Positions 8,398 to 61,413 of a DNA stretch of 64,000 nucleotides are shown in pieces. The stretch's first letter is position 1. Every line of letters starts with the position of its first letter. A program made the translations under genes and the position numbers. Origin of the DNA: Fibrobacter sp. Its GTDB lineage: Bacteria; Fibrobacterota; Fibrobacteria; Fibrobacterales; Fibrobacteraceae. The notes beneath the pieces are model-generated. The model saw only the letters and a list, made by a program, of their open reading frames with translations, had not been told where the DNA came from and did no database searches. The stretch is from positions 1-64,000 of the forward strand of contig JAGCPZ010000009.1 in the NCBI GenBank assembly GCA_017965445.1, read 5' to 3'.

Positions 8398-8586
8398 CGA
8401 GATGAGAGACTGCTTCGCTTACGGACTAGAGACGAGAGTGGTTCGACAGGTTCACTAACGTTGTTTCATTCTAAGTGAGCATTGCGAACGAAGAATCCAG
8501 TGATCCTTTATGTTACATTGTCACCCCGGTCACTGTACCGGGGTCAACTTTTTTAAAGAAAATCTCAATAAGACAACGAAAGCCCA
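8398..8586. repeat. Intergenic stretch made of several repeat fragments
   Basis: Contains ACTAGAGACGAGAGTGG, related to the GACGAGA heptamers at 55375. Next is GTGGTTCGACAGGTTCACTA (8440-8459), which matches TGGTTCGGCAAGCTCACCAA near 24543. Last is a palindrome at 8523-8544 (ACCCCGGT with ACCGGGGT) of the ATGAC-ending family, read on the minus strand. No gene seen. Confidence 0.65.
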
Positions 8587-11196
8587 ATGCGCACATACAA
8601 AGACCTGGCCCTAGCCGAAGAAGAACAGAAGCTTGAAGCGGCGATAGAAAAGTCGCGGAACTTGCTTATCGAAGCCCCCACCGGAAGTGGCAAGTCGCTG
8701 TACATTCCATGGTTCCTGAGCAGGCACTTTAGCGGACGCATCGTCGTATTGCAACCGCGCAGAATTGCAGCCCTCGCCCTCGCCCAGTATTCGGCAAAGC
8801 TGCACAACGAACCGTGCGGAAAAACTGTCGGTTACCAGTTTAGGCAGGACAGTTGCAAGTCCAGCGAAACCCGTATTCTCTTCCAAACATACGGAAACTT
8901 TTTGCAGGAACTTTTGCATGGAAAACTCGATGCAGACTGGGTAGTGTTCGACGAATACCATGAGCGCAGGGCAGATATGGATTTGCTTTTTGCGTATTTA
9001 GTTAGACGTGAAAAGCCGCGGATTGCGGTGATGTCGGCGGCACTGAACCGCGACGAACTCGAAGCAGCCCTTGGCGGTAAATGTTTGCAGCTAGGCCACC
9101 CGCTTTACCCCGTACAAATCATACATCAAAAACCGGCCACGGGCACAAACACAAGCGCAGGTCAAGGTATCGAAAGCGAAGTCGTCCGCGCATTGCGAAC
9201 ACTGTACCGCAACAACATTTGGCAAACGACACTTGTATTCTTGCCCGGCAAGGCAGAAATCGCAAGATGCCACACGGCAGCAAGCGAGGCGCTTGGCGAG
9301 AATGTTGCCGAATTCTTGGAACTGTACGGAGGGCAGGACCGCGAAACACAGGACCGCATTTTCGAAGAAACGGAACGCCCGCGAGTCATCTTCACGACGA
9401 ACATCGCGGAAACGTCCATCACCGTCCCGAACGTCACGGGAGTTGTCGATAGCGGAATCGAACGCGTAAGCGAATACGACGACAGCGAAAAGGTGAACGT
9501 GCTGCGCACACTGCCGATTTCTATGCAAAACGCCATCCAGCGTAGCGGCCGTAGTGGACGAACGCAAAACGGCTGTGCCATCCGCCTATGGACCGAAGAC
9601 GCAGAAAAGCACATGCCGCAAGGCATCGTGCCAGAAGTTTTGCAAATCGAGCCCTCGGAACTCTTGTTGCAAAAAGCGATGCTAGAGAGTTTAGACGAGA
9701 GGGGATTCCCGATCGGAGCCGGGAATGACAAGCATGTTTTTACAGCGAGAACGCTAGCCCCCAGTACTTTCTCCATCATTCTGCCTACGGCGATTCCCGA
9801 GGCTCGAGAGAAAGTCGCCACTAAGCTTCTCGAAGGCTTTGGCATGCTCCAGGAAGGTCGCATCACGGAACTCGGCAAACGCGCCATCCAAACGCCGATT
9901 TCAAATATACCTTTAGCGCTTATTTTGGCAAAAGCGGAAAGAGCCGCAGACCTCCCCGACCTTTTGCTTGCCGCAATGGCATGGATTCATTCAGGAACGG
10001 AATTCGTTCAGAAGTCCAAGGTTTCGCTGGACTTGCTCACGCTTGCAAAAGATACGCTTTCGAAGGCAGTGAACGTCCCGAAAGAAGTGAGCTTTACGCT
10101 GAGGCAACTTAAGGATTATAGAGATAAGTTAGACGATAAATGCGGGGCAAAGCCTGCCATAGCAGGCGACTACAAAGGACCTTTAGGTCCGACCTCACAC
10201 CTCATCGCTCAACAGCTTCTAGCCGCATTCCCTGACAAGCTCGCGACTCCAAGCGGCTCCGCATACAAGTTAAGCAACGGCAATACGATTCGCTTGCAAG
10301 TGGCAGACCCGCCATATGCACTACTCGCCCTCACGATGTTACGTACCGGTGGCGGAAGCAAATCGGAACTTCGCGTAAGCCTTTACGTTCCCATCCCGCA
10401 GAACCTGCTCGGCGGCGATAATGAAATCGTCCGTTACGAACTCCTGTGGCGAAGCGGTCAGGAACGCTTTATAGGCGTCGAAATTCACGAAGACAACTCC
10501 CCCACCGGCGAAGTCCGCGAAATCAGCCGCAAAGAAGTTCTTCCGCAAGAGGCATCGCCAAAAGTTCTCGAAAAGCTTAAGGAACTTACCGTCAATGCAT
10601 GGCGGGACAAGCTCGAAAAAGAAAACTGGACCGGTCGCTACCAAACCGAAAACATGCAGACGCTCCTTATCAAAATGCGCCTGGCAGCAAAAATGTACCC
10701 GGACTTCGGGCTCCCAGAATTCAACGACGAAGACATGGAGCTGATTTTCAACGAACTCACGGACGGCATCTTTTTACTGCGCGACATCAACGAAGACCGT
10801 TACAGGAATATTGTCGAAGATTACTTCGGAAAGTCGATGCTGTCGTGGCTCAACAAGACTTTCCCCGACCATTACGTTTTGCCGAACGGCAAACGCGCCC
10901 GCTACAGCTACCAAGCAGTCGCCACCGCCGACGAGCAAAGCAGCGGCAAGATTGTCCAAAGCGCAGACGGCGTGCTTGTCGAAATTTCCGCCCGCATCGA
11001 GGACTTTATGCAACTCCGCGGAGAGCACAAAATCGCAGACGGCAAACTCAAAGTACGTTACGACATTCTCGCTCCGAACTTCCGCACGATTCAAAAGACG
11101 TGGGATCTCACAAGTTTCTGGCAGAACACCTACGCCGAAGTCCGCAAGGAACTCCGCGGACGCTATCCAAAACATCCGTGGCCGGAAACGGTATAA
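8587..11196 (+). CDS. hrpB: ATP-dependent RNA helicase HrpB (DEAH box)
   Basis: DEAH-type helicase of 869 residues, near the usual 800-850 for HrpB. Walker A is APTGSGKS (residues 30-37), motif II is DEYHERRADMD (from 122), motif III is SAA, and motif VI is QRSGRSGR (from about 318). The family's C-terminal region follows (WQNTYAEVRKELRGRYPKHP). Substrate and role of HrpB are poorly known. Two in-frame stretches look inserted: residues about 370-384, encoded by a palindrome of the ATGAC-ending intergenic family, and residues about 519-538, encoded by two adjacent small palindromes. Both lie in parts where I recall no matching sequence in other HrpB proteins; an alignment is needed to confirm. 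Convergent with the next gene. Confidence 0.93.
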   Translation: MRTYKDLALAEEEQKLEAAIEKSRNLLIEAPTGSGKSLYIPWFLSRHFSGRIVVLQPRRIAALALAQYSAKLHNEPCGKTVGYQFRQDSCKSSETRILFQTYGNFLQELLHGKLDADWVVFDEYHERRADMDLLFAYLVRREKPRIAVMSAALNRDELEAALGGKCLQLGHPLYPVQIIHQKPATGTNTSAGQGIESEVVRALRTLYRNNIWQTTLVFLPGKAEIARCHTAASEALGENVAEFLELYGGQDRETQDRIFEETERPRVIFTTNIAETSITVPNVTGVVDSGIERVSEYDDSEKVNVLRTLPISMQNAIQRSGRSGRTQNGCAIRLWTEDAEKHMPQGIVPEVLQIEPSELLLQKAMLESLDERGFPIGAGNDKHVFTARTLAPSTFSIILPTAIPEAREKVATKLLEGFGMLQEGRITELGKRAIQTPISNIPLALILAKAERAADLPDLLLAAMAWIHSGTEFVQKSKVSLDLLTLAKDTLSKAVNVPKEVSFTLRQLKDYRDKLDDKCGAKPAIAGDYKGPLGPTSHLIAQQLLAAFPDKLATPSGSAYKLSNGNTIRLQVADPPYALLALTMLRTGGGSKSELRVSLYVPIPQNLLGGDNEIVRYELLWRSGQERFIGVEIHEDNSPTGEVREISRKEVLPQEASPKVLEKLKELTVNAWRDKLEKENWTGRYQTENMQTLLIKMRLAAKMYPDFGLPEFNDEDMELIFNELTDGIFLLRDINEDRYRNIVEDYFGKSMLSWLNKTFPDHYVLPNGKRARYSYQAVATADEQSSGKIVQSADGVLVEISARIEDFMQLRGEHKIADGKLKVRYDILAPNFRTIQKTWDLTSFWQNTYAEVRKELRGRYPKHPWPETV
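9704..9730. repeat. Intergenic-type palindromic repeat inside hrpB
   Basis: ATTCCCG (9705-9711) pairs with CGGGAAT (9720-9726) and is followed by GAC, the same plan as the intergenic palindromes at 24500, 36814 and 51222. It is preceded by TTTAGACGAGAGG, like a GACGAGA heptamer. It is read in frame as ERGFPIGAGND. Confidence 0.75.
10145..10200. repeat. Two adjacent small palindromes inside hrpB
   Basis: GCCTGC-CATA-GCAGGC is followed closely by GGACC-TTTA-GGTCC, read in frame as AKPAIAGDYKGPLGPTSH. The pattern of adjacent micro-palindromes is typical of the spaces between genes in this window and unusual in coding sequence. Confidence 0.6.
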
Positions 11197-20048: not shown

Positions 20049-20342
20049 TTACTTCGTCAAGACTAGCTCCTTGGAGAGCCTGCTTTGCCGAAGAGCGTCA
20101 AGCCTAGCCTCCATTTCTGCAATTTGCTCTTCGGACATGCCCATTTCTCGTAGGACTTTTTGAGTGTCGGTACGATTCTGAACAATTTCGGCTTCAGCAT
20201 TTTCAGCCTTTTGACGTTCTGCTTCGGCCTTTTGACGTTCCGCTTCGGCTCTTTGATCGGCTTCGGCAATCCGTTGGCGGAAAACATCGCCGGCGCTGAC
20301 AAATCCGTACTTTTGCCCAATGCTTTTGAATGCCATGTTCAA
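20049..20342 (-). pseudogene. C-terminal fragment copy of an Rpn-type nuclease gene
   Basis: The 97-residue reading (MNMAFKSIGQKYGFVSAGDV start) repeats the C-terminal part of the next upstream gene nearly word for word, then diverges into its own tail (EMGMSEEQIAEMEARLDALR). The similarity extends a little upstream of the ATG (20343-20365 against 20639-20665), so this is a tandem partial duplication. The nuclease core is missing. The ERQKAEA unit is duplicated relative to the parent. It could be expressed as a small coiled-coil protein, but a decayed copy is more likely. Confidence 0.7.
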
Positions 20343-20395
20343 CTCCTGTAGAACACCATTTCCTAAAAATAAGTATGACTTTCAGAATCAGCCGA

Positions 20396-21346
20396 TTATT
20401 GCCTTTCCGCTAGAATTTGTTCCTTGGAATAGCCGAAGTAAGCCATCGCGTTCTCAACAGAAATGACACCGTCACGCACCAGTTTCTTGGCTGTATTGAG
20501 CTTTTCCGCTTCAGCATTTTCAGCCTTTTGACGTTCTGCTTCGGCTCTTTGATCGGCTTCAGCAATCTGTTGGCGGAAAACATCGCCAGCGCTGACGAAT
20601 CCGTATTTCTGTCCAATGCTTTTGAATGCCATGTTCAACTCCTTCAGAACATCATTACCAAGGTACTCATTCAAATATAGACTAATCTTGTTCAGCAAAC
20701 AAGAGAGCTCGTTGCGCGGTAATTTCTGCAATTTGGGCACGAACTGGCGGAACACATCAAGAAAAGCGTCCTTGTCGTAGGCATGTACCATTGCCGCTAT
20801 TCCTAGGCCAGTCACCGCATCTTCACAAGCAAGACAATCGCTGTCTGGAATGTCGGACATGTTCACGAACGCACAGCGGAACGGCAACACCATGCCATGA
20901 AAATACTTGGGATAGTCCTTTTCGAGCATTTCCAACGGGTTCCAGTTTTCGCGCCCGTTATAGAATATGATTGCCATCGTCGGGAGTCCATCAAAAAGGC
21001 GGCCTTCGTCGAAGCGTTTCATTACGGAGCGTACATAACGCGCAAGCTGATTAAACGAGTCAGCGTCACGGCCGGACTTGTGTTCTACGAGGATTCCCAC
21101 AAATACGGGCGCTCCCGTAGCGACGTTCACGCGGAAAGCCAAATCCGCGTCACCCGTCTCGTACACCTCGGAATACGAATCCGGAATACGCACAAGCGTG
21201 TCCAAATTTACCGCAGCAAGGAAATCAGCAACATCAACATTTACTTTCCCCGCAAGTTCAAGCAGCAGCCTGAGATGATTTGTATCTGCGAACAACCAAC
21301 GGAAAAAAGCATCGTGAGGCTTTTTCGCCTCCTGTTTTTCTTCCAT
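20396..21346 (-). CDS. Rpn-family recombination-promoting nuclease (PD-(D/E)XK, YhgA-like)
   Basis: Protein of 316 residues. The N terminus KKPHDAFFRWLFADTNHLRL and the later LVRIPDSYSEVYETGDADLA and PVFVGILVEHKSGRDADSF match the Rpn/YhgA group. Within it D (GDADL) and E-x-K (EHKS) give the PD-(D/E)XK active site. Rpn proteins cut DNA and raise RecA-independent recombination. The C-terminal part is a charged coiled coil with alternating A-E-x-Q units. A partial copy lies directly downstream. Confidence 0.85.
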   Translation of the reverse strand: MEEKQEAKKPHDAFFRWLFADTNHLRLLLELAGKVNVDVADFLAAVNLDTLVRIPDSYSEVYETGDADLAFRVNVATGAPVFVGILVEHKSGRDADSFNQLARYVRSVMKRFDEGRLFDGLPTMAIIFYNGRENWNPLEMLEKDYPKYFHGMVLPFRCAFVNMSDIPDSDCLACEDAVTGLGIAAMVHAYDKDAFLDVFRQFVPKLQKLPRNELSCLLNKISLYLNEYLGNDVLKELNMAFKSIGQKYGFVSAGDVFRQQIAEADQRAEAERQKAENAEAEKLNTAKKLVRDGVISVENAMAYFGYSKEQILAERQ

Positions 21347-59037: not shown

Positions 59038-61413
59038 TTATTCGACGTAGTTGCTTTCGCACTTCATACCGTCATTTTCCGGTGTGACGAAGTGCATTTC
59101 AATACGACGGTTCATTTCGCGACCATCTGCCGTGGAGTTATCGTCAACCGGGCAGGTAGAGCCGAGACCAACAGCCTTGATGCGCTTCTTAGCGACACCG
59201 AACTTCGTGAGCTGCTTCATGACTGCCTTAGCGCGGCGATCAGAGAGCTTGAGGTTGCTCTTAGCCTTACCGCGGTTGTCGGTATGACCCTGGATCACAA
59301 TCTTGAGATCCTTGTATGCTTCGTCTTCCTTGAGCTTCTGAGCGACGCCCTTAAGGATTCTCTTAGCATTTGCGTTGACGGTAGCAGAGCCGCTCTTGAA
59401 GGAGATACCTTCGAGCTTTTCGACCTTCTTCTTCGGGCAGCCGAAGCCATCGTCACCAGCTTCAGCCGGGCAGCGATCCATACCGGAGCAGACACCTTCG
59501 AAGAGGTTGAACATGTTCTTTTCAGTGACCCAAGCATCGCAGACGCCGTCCTTATCGAGGTCCGGATCCGGGAGCGGGCAACCATCGTTAGCGGCAGCAC
59601 CGTGTTCGAGCGGGCACTTGTCGAGACCCTTACAGGTCTTGGAGATGAACCATTCCTTAGCAACAGATTCGTCTTCGGCAGCCTTTTCGAAGTAGTAGCC
59701 GAGCTTCTTCTGGACAACCCATTCGTCGCAGACGCCATCGCCGTCGCTATCCGGATCATCCCACGGACAACCCTTATTGCCAGCAGCACCAGCTTCACCC
59801 GGGCACATGTCGTAACCGGTGCAAACGCCGGTGTACTGATCGAGCTTGTTCTTGTCAGTTACCCACGGAGAGCAGAGACCGTCGCCATCCGGATCCGGAT
59901 TGTCTTCCGGGCAACCGTTGTTGACGAGCGTACCAGCTTCAGCTGCGCACTGGTCGATGCCTTCGCAAATATCCTTGAACTGATCCTGCATACCCTTCTG
60001 GCTGACCCAAGCATCGCAAACGCCATCCTTATCGGCATCCGGATCGTCGGTCGGGCAACCATTGGTGCTGCTACCCTTTTCGTTCGGGCACTGGTCGATA
60101 CCAGAGCAAATGTTGCTGAATTCGCCAAGAACGCCCTTTTCAGAGACCCAAGCGTCGCAAACACCGTCTTCGTCGGTATCCGGGTTACCCATCGGGCAGC
60201 CGGAGTTCAAACGGTGACCATAATCATCCGGGCAACGGTCATCGGCATCAGCAACACCATCGCCATCGCGGTCCTGCGGAAGCAGGAAGCCGGACCAAGA
60301 AAGACCGCCAAACAAAGCGTACTGCGGATTCACGCGAATCTTGGTAGCCTTGGTGAGGTTTTCGTCGTTTTCGAGAACATAAGCATAGTGGAGGTAATTG
60401 TCGTTACCCACATAAACAGAACCACCGAGCTGGACATCGAGGCCAATCGGCAGGTGGAACACGATACCACCAGTGACCTGCTTCATGTCGAGCTTTTCCT
60501 TAATAGGAATATCACCCAGCGGGTCGAGATAACCCGTCTGGGAGTTCACACGGTTCCATTCGAAATCCTTGGTCTGGAGATCCATATAGAATTCACCAAA
60601 CACAGAGAGGAAGTCGAGAGGATAGAATTCGACAGCTGCGCTAATGAACGGGAAGTTTTCGAATTCGAGGCCGCTGGCCTTACCCATGGACATCTTGTAA
60701 CCGCCGTTCACGTGAACGAGGAGCGGGAGAGCGTCGATCTTGGTAAGATCCAACGTGATAGCACCGCCAACCGTCAAGTCAGACTTCTTGGCACCCCACG
60801 GGAATGCGAAGCCCTGCTTGCTGATGTATTCCGGTTCGCGAATCCAAAGACCCTGCTTCGTTTCCTTAGCGGTCTTGAAAGAGAATCTGAAGAAGGCAGC
60901 TACATCCACCGGGATATCGGACGGAATCGGGGCACGAGCCTTCAAGTTAGCGGTCAGGTTACCGATGTAACCCTTCTTTGTACCGGCAAGCGGATTGCCG
61001 TCGCATGCATAGCTGTTGATTTCAGCTTCGGTGCACTTGGTGTTGCCGTTGAACTGGTCGTAATAGACCGGCAAAGTCACACCGATATCGAAGTAATCCA
61101 AAAGACCGATGGCAAAGCCCACGTAAGCGTTGACACCGATATAGCTTGCGACTTCAGCCTTCTGCGTTTGGCCAGAGGGCAAATATCTCTCCAATGCATG
61201 ATGAACATCTTGTTCAGGCATGGCCTGGAACATCTTGTTGCCAAATGCATAATCGCCCAAAGCTGAAAAAACCAGCTTCGAATGTCCAAGAGACTGAGCT
61301 GACTGTGTCTTGTTGACACCGACGAAGCTCGTCTTGTTTATCGTCTGGGCATGTTGACTAGCAAAAGCGGATACCGCCATTGCAAAAGCCAAACCCATTG
61401 CTACTCGTTTCAT
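59038..61413 (-). CDS. OmpA-family outer-membrane protein with thrombospondin type 3 repeats
   Basis: Product of 791 residues. Signal peptide about 1-18 (MKRVAMGLAFAMAVSAFA). Residues about 20-390 form a beta-barrel (LGHSKLVFSALGDYAFGNKM to YALFGGLSWSGFLL). About 395-690 is a chain of acidic calcium-binding TSP3 repeats (DRDGDGVADADDRCPDDYG, DTDEDGVCDAW, DPDSDGDGVCDEW), each with spaced Cys. The C-terminal OmpA domain (about 705-785: ISFKSGSATVNANAKRIL, VIQGHTDNRGKAKSNLKLSD) binds peptidoglycan. It links wall and outer membrane. AAGGAGA precedes the ATG. Long antisense open frames here are shadows of its acidic repeats. Confidence 0.93.
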   Translation of the reverse strand: MKRVAMGLAFAMAVSAFASQHAQTINKTSFVGVNKTQSAQSLGHSKLVFSALGDYAFGNKMFQAMPEQDVHHALERYLPSGQTQKAEVASYIGVNAYVGFAIGLLDYFDIGVTLPVYYDQFNGNTKCTEAEINSYACDGNPLAGTKKGYIGNLTANLKARAPIPSDIPVDVAAFFRFSFKTAKETKQGLWIREPEYISKQGFAFPWGAKKSDLTVGGAITLDLTKIDALPLLVHVNGGYKMSMGKASGLEFENFPFISAAVEFYPLDFLSVFGEFYMDLQTKDFEWNRVNSQTGYLDPLGDIPIKEKLDMKQVTGGIVFHLPIGLDVQLGGSVYVGNDNYLHYAYVLENDENLTKATKIRVNPQYALFGGLSWSGFLLPQDRDGDGVADADDRCPDDYGHRLNSGCPMGNPDTDEDGVCDAWVSEKGVLGEFSNICSGIDQCPNEKGSSTNGCPTDDPDADKDGVCDAWVSQKGMQDQFKDICEGIDQCAAEAGTLVNNGCPEDNPDPDGDGLCSPWVTDKNKLDQYTGVCTGYDMCPGEAGAAGNKGCPWDDPDSDGDGVCDEWVVQKKLGYYFEKAAEDESVAKEWFISKTCKGLDKCPLEHGAAANDGCPLPDPDLDKDGVCDAWVTEKNMFNLFEGVCSGMDRCPAEAGDDGFGCPKKKVEKLEGISFKSGSATVNANAKRILKGVAQKLKEDEAYKDLKIVIQGHTDNRGKAKSNLKLSDRRAKAVMKQLTKFGVAKKRIKAVGLGSTCPVDDNSTADGREMNRRIEMHFVTPENDGMKCESNYVE

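Follow-up and report, generated by a model that had tools for sequence, protein, structure and literature searches.

In-frame copies of a dispersed GTC-tagged hairpin repeat in hypervariable loops of the Fibrobacter helicase HrpB

The hrpB gene and its in-frame hairpin

The window (the whole 64,000-nt stretch of DNA analysed, from a Fibrobacter genome with a 2.76-Mb assembly, hereafter the own genome, G000) carries an open reading frame for an HrpB-like DEAH-box RNA helicase (Table 1), whose named relatives in GTDB belong to Fibrobacter. Pfam identified PF08482, PF00271 and PF00270 in its product, including the HrpB C-terminal domain, and the closest solved structures, compared by sequence and by fold (Foldseek), were those of E. 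coli HrpB (6eud and 6heg), while the NCBIfam HrpB equivalog cut-off was not reached. An AlphaFold2 model of the protein had a mean pLDDT of 81.6, with values below 50 at residues 374-392 and 520-533, which fall in the hypervariable sites that we call hotspots 2 and 3, as well as at residues 783-789. The original prediction, that a structure model would place a palindrome-derived segment of HrpB in a loop, thus agrees with the disorder modelled at 374-392.

Table 1. Features of the hrpB locus in the window, and the second repeat-filled gene of the own genome.
Feature	Position	Strand	Description
HrpB-like DEAH-box RNA helicase ORF	8587..11196	+	869 aa, intact; Pfam and structure matches
Hotspot 1, residues 139-143	9001..9015	+	almost empty here, with VRREK and the remnant TTAGACGTGAAAAG
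Hotspot 2, residues 369-396	9691..9774	+	from alignments; between helix 357-371 and helix 405-418
Heptamer unit TTAGACGAGAG	9691..9701	+	single unit of the GACGARA heptamer, which occurs in dispersed arrays; encodes LDER
REP-like hairpin with leader	9702..9730	+	encodes GFPIGAGNDK; carries the tag GAC(A) at 9727-9730 (minus strand: TGTC)
Hairpin stem	9705-9711 / 9720-9726		ATTCCCG / CGGGAAT
Hairpin loop	9712-9719		ATCGGAGC
Hairpin tag	9727-9730		GACA
Hotspot 3, about residues 514-535	10128..10193	+	decayed heptamer TTAGACGATAAA and two further palindromes
Hotspot-3 palindromes	10152-10167; 10177-10190		GCCTGCCATAGCAGGC; GGACCTTTAGGTCC
Topoisomerase (PF01131)	L153, 703-4140 (own genome, contig 32)		three hypervariable, repeat-filled loops across the genus

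Within this intact gene, a dispersed hairpin repeat has a copy of 26 nt at positions 9705-9730, in frame within residues 369-396, with AGACGAGAG at 9693-9701 on its 5' side, and the insert as a whole is composite, made of the heptamer, the hairpin and about 30 nt more. For the heptamer arrays, the sequence GACGARAGACGAR had 96 matches in the own genome versus 0 in the control. Folded alone, the window hairpin is modest (z -1.5 over 42 nt), whereas its counterpart in the nearest relative, L039 (CCGGTCGGAGCCGG), folds better (z -3.4), so we regard the window copy as slightly decayed. The case for a repeat copy therefore rests on the match to the repeat family and on the gap in relatives, not on fold energy. 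Just upstream of hrpB, at 8514-8546, lies a TGTCACCCCGG...CCGGGGTCA hairpin, a GTC-tagged relative with AC replacing AT, which adjoins TTCGACAGGTTCA and one AGACGAGAG unit.

Searching for the family with the pattern TGTCATNCCSN{4,18}SGGNAT, we found 153 copies in the own genome and 0 with the reversed pattern as control, which, together with the comparative gap, upholds the claim that an intergenic palindrome lies in frame in hrpB. Every genus genome searched held between 2 and 211 copies, versus 0-22 in genomes outside the genus. Because codon-usage scoring for gene calls was weak, we compared candidate host genes with Pfam, which gave no hit for L156; L166 overlaps only the edge of a predicted gene. 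Eight of the 96 distinct own-genome copies examined lay inside real-looking genes, all of them forward: one in hrpB, three in a topoisomerase, single in-frame repeats in a dihydrouridine synthase (Dus), an ABC ATPase and a Fib_succ_major lipoprotein, and one in an ORF without a Pfam hit. Further in-frame hosts in this genome presumably include, judging by look, a PrmC-like methyltransferase, a Lon-like protease tail, a YidC-like N-terminal region and an aminotransferase. The GACGARA heptamer arrays sit both in and between genes of the own genome. Phase variation by heptamer slippage was considered and set aside, as 7-nt units would shift the frame, yet 73 of the 74 hrpB ORFs compared below are intact and no sign of it was seen. 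On Fibrobacter repeats, the literature searched contained nothing relevant.

Repeat-filled loops across the genus

Aligning 74 Fibrobacter HrpB ORFs, we found three hypervariable loops, at residues ~141, 369-396 and ~520, that together hold in-frame copies of at least five repeat families. Hotspot 1, nearly empty in the window, has up to ~75 extra residues in relatives, and the hotspot-2 linker, measured from the conserved EPSELLLQK to LPTxIP, ranges from 10 to 87 residues. The closest relatives in which the loop is short, L031 (AMLETPTFKII) and L035 (AMLETNDSKII), with 91% HrpB core identity, have 24 residues fewer than the window at hotspot 2, and L071 groups with them but has other repeats there. 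The gap in relatives that had been anticipated therefore exists, although its size is 24 residues and not ~14, the insert being composite. L039, with 96% core identity, has the same hotspot-2 insert as the window, so the insertion is not recent in the window species.

To trace the source of the loop DNA, we compared hotspot segments with a 0.79-Mb set of non-hrpB DNA, using 765 length-matched controls from the rest of hrpB and leaving out L074, whose frameshifted hrpB would leave hrpB sequence in the database. Matches at E<=1e-5 were found for 12/51, 24/51 and 14/51 segments at sites 1, 2 and 3, respectively, versus 0/765 controls, and these matches covered 20-50 nt at 90-100% identity. Hairpin density was about sevenfold higher in hotspots than in the core (2.66/kb vs 0.39/kb), and GTC-tagged inverted repeats occurred in 31/51 site-2 segments versus 1/765 controls. 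Most inserts share one DNA plan, namely [C/T]GTC, an arm starting from AT or AC, an interior, the complementary arm and C, and are accompanied by GACGARA heptamer arrays and TTCGACAGGCTCA-type repeats, while the peptides that they encode look unrelated (e.g., RRSRIKSGMTD, VIASEAKQS, VILSEAHQGEVEGS, CHSGAEQRGAIES, SMDPISRPADSFQGD). One could suppose instead that low-complexity loop codons converged on charged, flexible peptides and that the likeness in DNA is a by-product of protein drift, as loop lengths vary outside the genus too and the insert peptides are hydrophilic. We consider such convergence extremely unlikely, given that near-identical matches elsewhere are confined to hotspot segments in this test, that entire tagged hairpins are conserved as DNA, and that a given nucleotide repeat can be read in one frame at one site and in another frame elsewhere, the heptamer giving FRRETRDE at site 1 and LDERRETR at site 2.

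Nearly all genomes in the comparison are metagenome assemblies, and the L074 gene (Fibrobacter RUG12637) is frameshifted exactly at hotspot 3, beside a short duplication, which could reflect a new disruption of the gene or else a misassembly. Both facts would fit intergenic repeats placed into hrpB by faulty assembly or binning, an explanation to which we assign almost no weight, as 73/74 ORFs are of full length (>=800 codons) and the same insert is common to several species (L040, L042, L044 and L069; L001 and L039). In L065 and L080, hotspot 1 contains a ~90-nt CGTGTGAGCC...GAGCCGAACGG-type module, duplicated in tandem and in frame to give peptide repeats of ~31 residues. An Rfam match to CRISPR-DR28 at 10146-10169, on a hotspot-3 palindrome, scored 23.9 bits against a cut-off of 35 and was taken as chance.

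The topoisomerase offers a second case, as three of its sites behave like the HrpB hotspots among 13 genomes. At its site 1 the own genome has ~80 extra residues composed of heptamers, TTCGGCAGGCTCA, two CCS-type hairpins and CCTGA-type repeats, and two other genomes (G014 and G001) have a short linker there, with flanks 92-97% identical.

Turnover, orientation and reading frame

Mapping repeat content onto a tree built from 763 columns of the HrpB core, we counted at least 3, 8 and 6 changes for the CCS-type hairpin and at least 7, 8 and 7 for heptamers at sites 1, 2 and 3, respectively, although such counts on a tree alone cannot separate gain from loss. Seven species with 94-98% core identity (L048, L066, L068, L073, L076, L078 and L081) carry at site 2 any of five repeat types or none (heptamer-type, ATGGACCC-type, CCS hairpin, CCTGAGC-type, GCGAGC-type, or nothing), and in the two of them that have a CCS hairpin the stems differ. 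In L033, one REP hairpin is nested inside another repeat. We favour gain over loss because the inserts are identical in kind to dispersed repeats, not from exact junctions, and insertion is thus the probable direction of change, as judged from sequence. Neither a clean target-site duplication nor a before/after pair with identical flanks was found, the loop flanks being degraded; target-site duplications, a trait of MITEs, were likewise not seen by eye in the hotspot-2 sequences, among which there was no intact-flank pair.

This turnover bears on whether the hotspot hairpins might have been retained as mRNA elements acting in pausing, stability or cleavage, in which case insertion would be regulatory and not neutral. 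Hairpins are enriched in the hotspots, and REPs have been hypothesised to stabilise mRNA or to end transcription (PMC3733652). Near relatives nonetheless differ in content, with many copies hairpin-free (heptamers) and some loops empty; decay is seen in the window copy, and no Rfam family scored above its threshold, so a role in RNA appears improbable to us.

Comparing codons between the window and L039, we counted 119 synonymous and 30 nonsynonymous differences in the core of hrpB, versus 11 synonymous and 25 nonsynonymous in the hotspots; HrpB outside the hotspots is under purifying selection. The nonsynonymous excess in the hotspots, their fast turnover, and the recurrence of the pattern in two nucleic-acid enzymes could also be read as adaptive, with repeats recruited for function and rewriting loops of the helicase and the topoisomerase, and intragenic REPs elsewhere are reportedly frequent in replication and repair genes (PMC3733652). 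We think adaptation unlikely, since peptides are wholly different between species and the loops of several species are empty, which looks like tolerance, and since the insert in a rickettsial guanylate kinase was reported to be neutral or slightly harmful (PMC2229807).

Orientation and frame were strongly skewed. The hrpB ORFs held 35 CCS-type hairpins in forward orientation and 0 in reverse, read in the GMT frame 30 times, in the GND/GHD frame 5 times and in the TGA frame 0 times, with the caution that these 35 rows include related or duplicate genomes and are not independent. In coding sequences of the own genome, 8 copies were forward and 0 clearly reverse, versus 12 and 35, respectively, between codirectional genes (hypergeometric probability ~1e-4, with three of the eight in one gene), such that the genic orientation of this hairpin is opposite to its intergenic preference. 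Stop codons do not explain the bias, because all three reverse frames are mostly open. The two readable forward frames are hydrophilic (GRAVY -0.62 and -1.49) and encode Cys in 13/69 and 15/63 cases, whereas the reverse frames have GRAVY values of -0.16, +0.52 and -0.70 and encode Cys in 72/72, 11/77 and 43/66. These properties suggest that the filter on inserts acts at the protein level.

Known palindromic repeats and the proposed explanation

Among described repeats, the closest in plan is the superfamily of CGTC-tagged REPs, in which TGTC is a frequent variant of the tag, stems run 8-9 bp from AT, no dedicated transposase is known, and in-frame intragenic copies have been reported, including Rickettsia RPE-4 and RPE-6; Neisseria dRS3 is also a member, and the five phyla listed do not include the Fibrobacter group (PMC3733652). 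The Fibrobacter elements resemble it in their terminal [C/T]GTC tag and in a stem whose first two positions are AT, and more loosely in a short loop and a C-starting tail. The window copy is tagged TGTC, site-2 elements nearly all carry [CT]GTC, and the base before GTCAT was T or C in 39/40 hairpins from loci that were not chosen by the TGTC pattern. Stems pair over 8 bp from AT in most copies of the family (7 bp in the window copy, 9 bp in L039). Loops of common copies have 4, 5 or 6 nt, versus 4-5 nt in CGTC-tagged REPs, with some subfamilies far longer, and the three-base tail is mostly CTC, versus a CCA consensus. Fibrobacter also differs in having many subfamilies per genus and the same protein loops struck repeatedly.

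No dedicated transposase emerged in Fibrobacter either, within the Y1_Tnp class searched. Of 25 genus genomes, 8 carried Y1_Tnp (PF01797; IS200-type), with no relation to hairpin copy number, and three genomes with 187-206 hairpin copies (G014, G019 and G006) had 0. The own-genome Y1_Tnp copy (L169) is not flanked by GTC-tagged hairpins, in contrast to GTAG-tagged REPs with their flanking RAYT; the Fibrobacter tag is GTC, and the own genome has no REP-flanked Y1 transposase. A RAYT/IS200 mover was accordingly rejected, as Y1_Tnp occurs in a minority of genomes and without flanking hairpins.

In-frame palindromes have already been described in Rickettsia, Wolbachia and elsewhere (PMC10969869, PMC2229807, PMC4224334, PMC3733652). 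The proposed likeness to Rickettsia RPEs holds in that both are dispersed palindromes lying in frame in unrelated genes whose products apparently still function (PMC10969869, PMC2229807), here with relatives lacking them; the main RPEs, unlike ours, are ~100-150 bp long and encode one conserved peptide, whereas Fibrobacter units measure ~26-45 nt, use more than one reading frame, are stacked with other repeats, and are replaced between species at a single site. Wolbachia palindromic elements in addA, addB and priA likewise show several in-frame insertions into DNA-processing genes, with variability among strains (PMC4224334), a likeness in insertion pattern in a different host. The nearest precedent for reuse of a site is recB, where two Xanthomonas species carry different REPs at about the same coding position (PMC3733652), as against dozens of species, several repeat families and six sites in two genes in Fibrobacter. 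New, as far as the literature searched shows, are same-site replacement over dozens of species, subfamily stacking and the orientation filter.

We interpret the feature at hotspot 2, with a probability of roughly 0.88, as an in-frame [C/T]GTC-tagged intergenic REP in an HrpB loop that is disordered and probably exposed to solvent, one of recurrent arrivals of which most are purged. GTC-tagged repeats and heptamer arrays would keep arriving in Fibrobacter genes, where most would presumably be removed, and survivors would be those combining an open reading frame, a hydrophilic peptide and a loop tolerant of almost any length. The three loops of HrpB and the three of the topoisomerase may then act as traps recording successive insertions, nested insertions and deletions, and for the helicase, carrying such a peptide is most probably close to neutral. 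The original prediction was right in kind but too small, in that what it described at one site recurs across the genus as an invasion of tolerant loops by REPs. Its suggestion that the element is still mobile gains from the turnover, which would fit continuing mobility, and not from any Y1_Tnp-class partner. More tentatively, and somewhat short of even odds, live activity may be inserting GTC-tagged repeats genome-wide, placing near species-specific repeats in the same helicase and topoisomerase loops and providing a steady source of new peptide; if so, these loops would be a running record of insertion.

Protein-coding palindromes have so far been treated largely as a rickettsial oddity of isolated insertions. 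With dozens of species in one free-living genus, the rate, orientation, frame and tolerance of insertions become measurable, and both the neutrality of insertions and the mover of transposase-less REPs become testable. Automated Fibrobacter protein alignments and domain calls warrant caution, as they contain repeat-derived segments. In the own genome, VIASEAKQS- and DSGSMTGMT-type repeats are read in frame in serine-rich lipoprotein linkers at L218, L219 and L139. The window also holds longer direct repeats at 20223-20659 and 59455-60203 (141 nt at 91% identity; 131-nt units at 62-70%), which are unrelated to the hairpin.
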